Assembly: GCA_025964675.1 (NCBI GenBank)
Contig: JAOPYI010000282.1
Location: 1-48,955 of the forward strand
DNA: 48,955 nucleotides
From: Sphaerisporangium sp.
GTDB lineage: Bacteria > Actinomycetota > Actinomycetes > Streptosporangiales > Streptosporangiaceae
Reading direction: 5' to 3'
The notes below the pieces were generated by a model, which saw only the letters and a program-made list of their open reading frames with translations, did not search any database and was not told the DNA's origin. Shown piece by piece: positions 28,782 to 34,343 of the stretch (the first letter of the stretch is position 1; each line of letters starts with the position of its first letter). Both the position numbers and the translations under genes were made by a program.

Positions 28782-31700
28782 ATGAGCGAGCCGCTGACCG
28801 ATCCCGCACCAGGGCTGAATGTGGAGCGCGCCGGCGTCCCGCTCACCGCCGCCAAGCAGGCCCTTCTCGCCCAGCGGCTGCGGCGGCGCTCCGGATCCCA
28901 GGTCGAGGAGCGAATCCCGCCCCGTCCCGCCGGTGTCGCGCCTCCCCTTTCGTACGCGCAGGAGCGGCTGTGGTTCATGGACCAGCTCGTTCCTGAGACC
29001 TCGGCGTACACGATCGTCCTGACACTGCGGCTGCGCGGCGCGGTCGACGCCGGCGCGCTCGAGAACGCCGTCCAGCACGTCGCCGACCGGCACGAGGCGC
29101 TGCGCACCCGCTTTCCCGCCGGGGACGACGGCCGCCCCGCCGCCGTCGTGGAGGACTCCGCGGGCGTACGGCTCGGGCGTGGCGAGGCGGGTTCGGAGCA
29201 AGCCGCCAGGGAGATGATCGAGGAGCTGGCGTCCGAGCCGTTCGACCTGGCCACGGGTCCCCTCCTGCGGCCCTTGCTGATACGGCTTGCCCCCGAGGAC
29301 CACGTGCTGGCGCTCGCCGTCCATCACATCGCGTGCGACGGCTGGTCGTGCGACCTGCTGACGTCCGAGATCCTGACCCGCTACGAGACCGACACGCGAG
29401 GCGCCCGCCCCGAGCCCGAGCGGCCGTCCTCCGATCCGGCCAAGGACGAGCCGCCGTCCGCCGACTCTGCCGGGACCGACCGGCCGTCACTCGACTACGG
29501 CGACTTCGCGGTCTGGCAGCGGCGGGACCCCGCGGTGGGCAGGGACCTCGGCTACTGGCGGGAACGGCTCACCGGGCTGCCGCCCCTGGACCTGTTCACC
29601 GACCACCCCCGCCCGCACCGGCAGACCTTCGCCGGATCCGCCCACGGTTTCCGGCTCGACGCCGAGGAGGCCGCGGGGCTGCGCGCCCTGGCGTCCGGCC
29701 TCGGCGTGACGCTCTACATGATCGTGCTATCCACGTGGCAGGCCCTGCTCGGCCGGTACACCGGCCAGGAAGACTTCGCCGTCGGCTCACCCGTCGCGGG
29801 GCGTCCGAGGCCGGAGCTGGAGAACATGGTCGGCTGCTTCGTCAACATGCTCACCATGCGGGCCGACCTGTCCGGCGACCCGACGTTCAAGGAGCTGCTG
29901 CTGCGGACCAGGGAGTCCGCCCTGGACGCGTACGCGCACCAGGACCTGCCGTTCGAACGGCTGGTGCAGGAGCTGAACCTGCCTCGCGACGTGTCCCGGC
30001 CGCCGCTGTTCCAGACGATCTTCGCCATGCAGAACTACGGCACCCGTGGCCGTCCTGTGGACGGGCTCGACGTCGGGCCGTTCGCCGTCCAGACCCTCTC
30101 CACACGGTTCGACCTGGAGCTGTACGCGAGCGAGGATGCCGGCGGCCTCGGCCTGCTGCTGACCTACAACACCGACCTGTTCTCGCCGGACACCGCCGGG
30201 CGCATGGCGACGCACCTGACCATGCTGCTGAAGGGCGTCGCCGCCCGTCCCGAAGCGCGCCTCGCGGAGATCGGCATCCTCGGCGAGGACGAGCTCGCGC
30301 GGGTCACCGCCGGGTTCAACGCGACGGACGCGCCCTTCCCGGACGGCTCGACCCTTCACGGGCTGGTCGAGGAGCAGATCGCCCGCACTCCGGACCGTAC
30401 GGCCGTCACCTTCGAGGGCACCTCGCTCACCTACGCCGAACTGGGCGAGCGGGCCGACCGGATCGCGTTGCGGCTGCGGTCGCTCGGCGCCGGGCCGGGG
30501 GTCACCGTGGCGATCTGCGCGGAACGGTCCCCCGAACTGGTGGCGGGGCTGCTCGGCGTCCTCAAGGCGGGCGCCGCGTACGTCCCGCTGGACCCGGAGT
30601 ACCCGGCCGACCGGCTGGCCTTCATGCTCGCCGACTCCGGCGCGGAGATAGTCCTCACGCAGCGGCGCCTGCGCGACACGCTGCCCGAGGCGCTGCGCGA
30701 CGCCCGCCTGCTGTGCCTCGACGATCCGGCCGAGTGGCCGCCCGGGAGTCCCTCCGGAGCAGGAGACCCCCTTGACGTCGCCTACATGATCTACACCTCG
30801 GGCTCCACCGGGCGGCCGAAGGGCGTGCCCAACTCCCACCGGGGCATCGTCAACCGGCTCGACTGGATGCAGAAGAGGTTCGGGCTCGGCGAGGACGACA
30901 CCGTGCTGCAGAAGACGCCCGCGAGCTTCGACGTGTCGGTGTGGGAGTTCTTCTGGCCGCTGCTGGCCGGAGCCCGGCTGGTGCTGGCCAGGCCCGGCGG
31001 CCACAAGGACGCCGCCTACCTGGCCGGACTGATCCAGGCGGAACGGGTGACGACCCTGCACTTCGTCCCCTCGATGCTCGCCGTCTTCCTGGCCGAGGAG
31101 AACGCCGGGACCTGCACGTCGCTCCGGCGGGTCATCTGCAGCGGCGAGGAGCTGTCCACGGACCTGGCGATCAGGTGCCGGAGGGCGCTCCCGGCCGAGC
31201 TGCACAACCTGTACGGCCCGACCGAGGCGGCCATCGACGTGTCGGCGTGGGCCTGCGAGCCGGAGGCGCTGACCGGCCTGGCCCGCGTCCCCATCGGCGC
31301 GCCGATCCAGAACATCCGCCTCTACGTGCTCGACCCCGGCATGGAGCCCGTCCCGATCGGGGTGCCGGGCGAACTGCACATCGGCGGCGCCGGCCTGGCG
31401 TACGGCTACCACGGCAGGCCGTCGCTGACGGCCGAACGCTTCGTGCCCGATCCGTTCGGGCCACCGGGCGCGCGGCTCTACCGTACGGGCGACCTGGCAC
31501 GCCGGCGTCCGGACGGGACGATCGACTTCCTCGGCCGGCTGGACACGCAGGTCAAGGTCAGGGGCCTGCGCATCGAGCTGGGCGAGATCGAGGCCGTGCT
31601 GCGGGAGCAGCCGGGCGTGACGGACGCCGCCGTGGTCGTGCGCGAGGACCGGCCAGGCGACAAGCGGATCGTGGCCTACCTGGTCGGCGAGGCCGAGGCG

Positions 31701-34343: not shown

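Follow-up and report, generated by a model that had tools for sequence, protein, structure and literature searches.

What does a lone module of a non-ribosomal peptide synthetase (NRPS) make when it is fused to its own transporter and lies between a chitinase gene and tex, and does it act alone? This is the situation in the stretch of DNA considered here, 48,955 nucleotides of contig JAOPYI010000282.1 from Sphaerisporangium sp. (assembly GCA_025964675.1), below called the window. The fusion gene occupies positions 28782..34343 on the plus strand. It starts with ATG, encodes 1853 amino acids (aa) and has a single terminal stop; no internal stop was found in a whole-genome search. Pfam detects, all above the gathering score, Condensation, AMP-binding, AMP-binding_C, PP-binding, Thioesterase and MFS_1 in this order, which corresponds to a condensation (C) domain at 28929..30293, an adenylation (A) domain at 30354..31817, a carrier (T) domain at 31869..32081, a thioesterase (TE) at 32109..32891 and an exporter domain of the major facilitator superfamily (MFS) at 32964..34181. 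The motifs HHIACDG (at 29322), TSGSTGRPKG, YGPTE, NGKLD, GGHS (at 31956) and GHCG/GERDP/GHFF are followed in the MFS part by the motif A sequence GAVVDRSNRR (at 33165). All domains of an NRPS terminating module, with their active-site motifs, are therefore on one chain together with an exporter. This is what the original prediction had seen at this locus, a module, a thioesterase and a transporter combining synthesis, release and export in one polypeptide, and it is borne out by the domain scan and the frame, which has no stop between TE and MFS.

The fusion recurs in other genomes. The TE-MFS part has matches at E<=1e-60 in 15 genomes among 60 relatives, the nearest being that of S. corydalis (G007; 90% identity). 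A further search of genome contigs gave 16 loci, 14 with full members and two with weak partial ones (L051, L052). For comparison 38 proteins, including that of the window, were laid out: the contig-search members, those of two Embleya strains and S. clavuligerus, and those from 20 stretches picked from the TE-MFS matches in the 60 relatives, leaving out L006, which has the MFS only. C, A, T, TE and MFS are within a single frame in all 38, the set being biased toward the fusion since it was chosen by TE-MFS similarity. As the identical order is seen in every member, a chance frame is excluded, and a frameshift or assembly artefact is ruled out by the same observation and by the open frame here. 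Close homologues, which might have been encoded as two proteins, are single frames as well.

Among 394 genomes of the class, matches to the fusion at E<=1e-70 were found in 23, its own genome included. The 52 rows of this search represent 37 frames. Of these, 34 (including the window) span TE and MFS; the remaining three, of 304, 518 and 1014 aa, have their match confined to the MFS part. Four of the 34 TE+MFS rows show one stop within the match; among them are G013:C128 and G015:C21 (loci L055 and L060), where a single frame still runs from C to MFS. Because full-length members pass this threshold more easily, and no more than two candidates were scored in each genome, unfused relatives may be missed.

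The A-domain residues aligned to E. coli EntF read DVWHISLID against DVWHFSLVD in EntF. In the available text of PMC12283262, the serine codes DVWHLSLVDK and DVWHMSLVDK vary at positions 299 and 330, and the code of the window departs at the same places. Judged by its code, the module is serine-specific, as had been proposed from the letters alone. The likeness to EntF proposed at the same time is a partial one. The C-A-T-TE order and the serine code DVWH.SL.D are shared with this enterobactin synthetase, but the release domains differ: in the TE of EntF the nucleophile is Ser and position I holds Asp, where the window has Cys and Ala, respectively. EntF also has no transporter.

Fold comparisons by VIA-align place the TE elsewhere. 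Its best match, both in sequence and in fold, is ObiF1, the obafluorin synthetase module of Burkholderia diffusa (PDB 6n8e), and the second-best fold match is SulM of the beta-lactam-forming sulfazecin line (PDB 8w2c/8w2d); type II TEs rank next. The candidate catalytic residues are Cys1197 (32370-32372), Asp1315 (32724-32726) and His1345 (32814-32816). ObiF1 shares with the window the C-A-T-TE order, the Cys nucleophile, the moved Asp, the His and its Arg1190, and differs in having Gly1173 in place of the Ala. SulM likewise has the Cys nucleophile and the moved Asp, but reads Gln-Cys-Asn where the window reads His-Cys-Gly, and the last residue of its line is 2,3-diaminopropionate. In the family, 37 of the 38 members have a Cys nucleophile, and the catalytic Asp is at position II with none at position I in all 38. 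Like that of ObiF1, the A domain of the window is of a type that accepts a beta-hydroxy amino acid, here Ser by its code. Given these residues and this fold, the TE may bind the chain to Cys1197 in a thioester, which the beta-hydroxyl of the serine would attack to give a beta-lactone, as in ObiF1. We put the chance that a beta-lactone or another strained ring is closed a little short of even.

The same module could instead release its chain by hydrolysis or close a larger ring, for example through the side chain of the Lys-like residue which, by code, is provided by the preceding module (see below), with the MFS exporting the product. This is possible, though not probable. The strongest point against a strained ring, which also speaks for this alternative, is that 25 of the 38 members have Asp-like or unassigned codes, without an obvious beta nucleophile, and all 25 retain the Cys TE; because of this, Cys and the moved Asp alone do not prove ring closure. 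Type II TEs, which are hydrolases and stand next in the fold list, have Asp at the same position as the window TE (PMC11298585, in the part available). Further points against a beta-lactone concern ObiF1. The counterpart of its Arg1190 is present in only 27 of the 38. ObiF1 itself takes bulky beta-hydroxy amino acids but not Ser, according to the accessible portion of PMC6668435, and it ends in an MbtH-like domain, where the window protein has the MFS and no MbtH-like domain. Two things weigh against the alternative. Cys serves as nucleophile in 37 members, and a Cys-to-Ser change left ObiF1 with hydrolysis only (same portion of PMC6668435). In addition, the terminal code of the one Ser-nucleophile member is Lys-like, a single case.

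That member is L066 (G025:C8, minus strand, 8361-14270), with the motif GHSSVGS and without the ObiF1 Arg. It is a natural Cys-to-Ser switch near the window's own branch. Ala as opposed to Gly at position I was considered as a substrate marker, as Ala is found in 12 of 12 Ser- or Cys-coded members and in one of the 26 others. However, there is one independent pair on the starred branches, and thus we do not claim such a marker.

Is the Cys nucleophile specific to the fusion? As a control, PF00975 matches were listed for 11 genomes and 73 stretches, part of the rows, were read, with nucleophiles assigned by motif pattern. Frames with a flagged T domain have GHC in seven of seven cases when an MFS follows the TE and in none of 17 when it does not (15 Ser, two GYC). 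Three of the seven (the window, G032:C13, G032:C16) were already within the 38. Cys by itself was rejected as a hallmark: unfused TEs read GYC or GFC in L112, L123, L139, L143, L145, L152, L163 and L166. GHC without a flagged T and without an in-frame MFS was seen in L147, L160 and L165. On closer inspection L160 (G013) is a T-TE and thus an unfused counter-example; no MFS was found in its frame or among the other called genes of the 12 kb fetched. The association is that of GHC together with MFS, not of Cys alone.

An AlphaFold model of TE plus MFS (728 aa, pLDDT 84.2) matches solved MFS transporters over approximately 350-400 residues in its MFS part. The domain is complete and carries motif A, as expected of an exporter of the drug:H+ antiporter type. 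It falls outside the NCBIfam subfamily TIGR00900, scoring 183.7 bits against a cut-off of 319.6. Mef(B), closest by sequence, and SotB, NorA and MdfA, by fold, share the MFS fold and motif A but are free-standing. It is likely that the domain exports the product of the fusion. The fused MFS, whose fold and motif A are observed, would then expel a reactive compound, and the fusion may keep release beside the exit and protect the producer; transport and channelling are predictions. On plasmids of Nostoc and Trichormus, homologous MFS genes (36-38% identity) lie 1 and 14 bases behind an NRPS gene. These two-gene pairs were considered as an unfused ancestor, but the window TE found no match in that NRPS, and so this ancestry is unsupported.

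Judged by titles and abstract beginnings, open-access PMC gave no paper describing such a fusion of an NRPS with an MFS domain. As this was the only literature covered, the result is weak evidence of novelty. The parts are known; for their recurrent combination with a TE of the ObiF1/SulM type, the same collection gave no published description. We assume that a RefSeq product name like 'non-ribosomal peptide synthetase/MFS transporter' exists, in which case the architecture is annotated, perhaps unstudied.

Does the module work alone? It had been proposed that no biosynthetic gene is adjacent and that the gene may be a one-gene pathway needing only an acyl donor. The former is correct within the window: the fusion is flanked by genes for a GH18 chitinase and Tex (15 of the 37 called genes were scanned with Pfam), and the whole-genome search gave no other C or A match on this contig. 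It is misleading nevertheless, because the likely partner genes are on contig C15 of the same genome (7.77 Mb, 313 contigs). This contig carries a starter A gene (NATFGTYPA), a C-A[DILQLGMIW]-T gene, a C-A[DILQLGVIW]-T-C-A[DTEDIGTII]-T gene and a gene for a 124-aa protein. The line has no TE. DILQLGMIWK is given for Gly, and DTEDIGTII may be Lys-like, as it resembles the Lys code DGEDHGTVVK (both from the available text of PMC12283262). The 124-aa protein has no Pfam match and is 58% identical over 78 residues to the MbtH/carrier protein encoded behind the G032 fusion. In S. corydalis all four C15 genes have their counterparts on contig C86 (the first T domain found by tblastn), and the fusion is on C119, again between chitinase and Tex.

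In the relatives G009, G032 and G013, the fusion is directly downstream of a bimodular NRPS without TE. The C15 NRPS is 55% identical (2183 columns), 51% and 48% identical to this upstream gene in G032, G013 and G009, respectively. At E<=1e-150 the starter gene is found in six of the 11 genus genomes, and all six have a main-type fusion (>=872 bits). Of the five without it, G005 has a main-type fusion together with a starter of 39% identity, the fusion matches of G001 and G010 are all distant, and G002 and G003 have none at E<=1e-60. Five genomes outside the genus were left out of these counts, since they had been chosen because they bear the fusion. Thus it is likely that the fusion is the terminal module of the C15 line.

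In a one-gene pathway, an acyl-CoA or acyl-carrier donor would give an N-acyl-Ser compound, which is then exported. The window's contig, with no further C or A match, would suit it, as would L037, L038, L039, L041 and L043, where the fetched flanks contain no other NRPS frame. However, the nearest solved relatives of the C domain are Txo2, Txo1 and TycC, with 294 bits against 110 for the surfactin synthetase entry 8f7h, which we take to be a starter C domain. With homologous partner NRPS, starter A and carrier-like genes on C15 and on C86 of S. corydalis, and a TE-less NRPS directly upstream of the fusion in three relatives, such a pathway is unsupported and improbable.

We suggest the following scheme for a line ending in the fusion. 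Firstly, the stand-alone adenylation enzyme would start the chain, and the C15 NRPSs would add Gly, Gly and the Lys-like residue; the genes are those observed on C15, the substrates follow from the codes and the order of modules is presumed. Secondly, the chain would be transferred in trans to the C domain of the fusion and joined to Ser on its T domain. Finally, the TE would close the ring as described above. Taken jointly, that is, as a terminal module physically separated from its multi-protein line, these three steps are a tentative reading, with odds somewhat on the unfavourable side.

Several observations weigh against the link. The C15 line and the fusion are on different contigs, and there is no direct evidence that they are linked in the cell. 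The nearest linked relative of the fusion on the tree is that of G009 (support 89), whereas the C15 NRPS is closest to that of G032 (55% versus 48%); as the nearest relatives differ, co-inheritance of the two is not clean. The candidate docking segment, a basic N-terminal helix LTAAKQALLAQRLRRR (28842..28889, plus strand; a pattern match), could have the acidic tail of the C15 NRPS as its partner. By the same pattern it is present in 16 of the 38 members, not found in 15 and unreadable in seven. It also occurs in L056, L064 and L065, with no NRPS directly upstream among the called genes, and is therefore weak evidence of docking.

How did the module come to lie apart from its line? Chitinase and Tex matches adjoin in all 11 genus genomes. 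In nine of these, 149 to 891 bp separate the two matches; in the other two, the window genome and S. corydalis, the distance is 6316 and 6386 bp. Nucleotide alignments from the nine empty sites stop at 28,470-28,531 in the window and resume at 34,342-34,356 (five genomes) or 34,717 (four); one empty site also aligns a 61-base piece, 34,307-34,367, overlapping the end of the fusion gene. From these end points the insert consists of the gene and roughly 250-310 bp of 5' sequence (28516..34343, ends approximate), a segment absent from the nine genomes. In G032 the fusion sits between the NRPS and a small gene. On C15 there is a 4-bp overlap between the small gene and the stop of the NRPS; in S. 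corydalis the small gene, as called, begins approximately 100 bp behind the NRPS. This layout fits a fusion that moved out of its cluster. Alternatively, judging by the kinship to G009 and G032, the fusion and the C15 line may have been acquired separately. No transposition footprint in the form of a common 9-mer, direct or inverted, was found at the insert ends in the window; the insert ends of S. corydalis have one inverted 9-mer. Behind the stop of the fusion, a small frame on the minus strand ends within 34344-34600, with a hydrophobic stretch before its final residues; we take it to be SHOCT-like.

A module that is apart from its cluster and inserted at a foreign site could also be a decaying leftover, no longer working with its line. 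Yet the frame and the checked motifs are intact, the frame is whole in S. corydalis too, and the C15 genes have long open frames with detectable domains. We consider decay very improbable.

The A codes of the 38 members are ten Ser-type, two Cys-type (DLYNLSLIW, DLFNLSLIW), one Lys-like (L066), 20 DFTK.GH.G and five others. In the available text of PMC12283262, DLYNLSLIWK is given for Cys and DLTKVGHVGK, which is near the most frequent code of the family, for Asp/Asn; an open-access PMC search yielded no paper on the substrate of DFTK(I/V)GHVG. The first four letters of the code change at least ten times across the TE-MFS tree, and therefore the specificity domain was exchanged under a lasting TE-exporter pair. 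For instance, L055 (G013:C128) and the window are 66% identical in TE and 72% in MFS, but only 43% in A. L055 and L046 (Actinomadura sp. 7K507) combine a Cys-specific A code with the Cys TE, and if ring closure is true these fusions could form a beta-thiolactone.

A broader interpretation, which we regard as doubtful, is that of a family of membrane-anchored NRPS finishing modules, where the Cys TE would close strained rings beside its own fused exporter, the specificity domain is swapped repeatedly and the cassette can work in trans for a line encoded at an unrelated locus. The rings would be a beta-lactone from Ser, possibly a beta-thiolactone from Cys and another one for the Asp-like members. 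If the strained-ring reading holds, exported strained-ring peptides of rare actinomycetes could be recognised in sequence by a GHC thioesterase followed by an in-frame MFS, and it could be tested whether a producer is shielded from its own reactive product when release enzyme and exit are fused. For genome mining it would be a warning that a lone terminal module, orphan in appearance, may have its line on another contig.

A second, more distant T-TE(GHC)-MFS group was found in L155 (G007:C1), L157 (G007:C99), L164 (G001:C54) and L156 (G035:C34). Its MFS is 38-39% identical, and G001 carries it without the main type.

The gene contexts of the family are diverse. In L059 the fusion follows a polyketide synthase gene, and in G006 and G008 it follows an operon that encodes A, C-T and subunits of 2-oxoacid dehydrogenase. 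L003 on the S. clavuligerus plasmid pCLA1 (12034-17694) is a member with the code DFTKVGHVG in a well-known producer and adjoins a starter A-T-C gene and a Gly module. Clusters in L057, L058, L042, L047 and others contain 2-oxoacid dehydrogenase E1 alpha, E1 beta and E2 genes together with a starter A and a C-T didomain (by Pfam in L057 and L042, by similarity elsewhere), and this gene content suggests a dedicated supply of an acyl starter. A regular partner in the clusters, without an obvious role, is an N,N-dimethylformamidase-like protein (L042:13522-15513; DMFA2_C by Pfam on L042 only), with similar genes in L001, L002, L040, L044, L045, L047, L048, L049 and L050.
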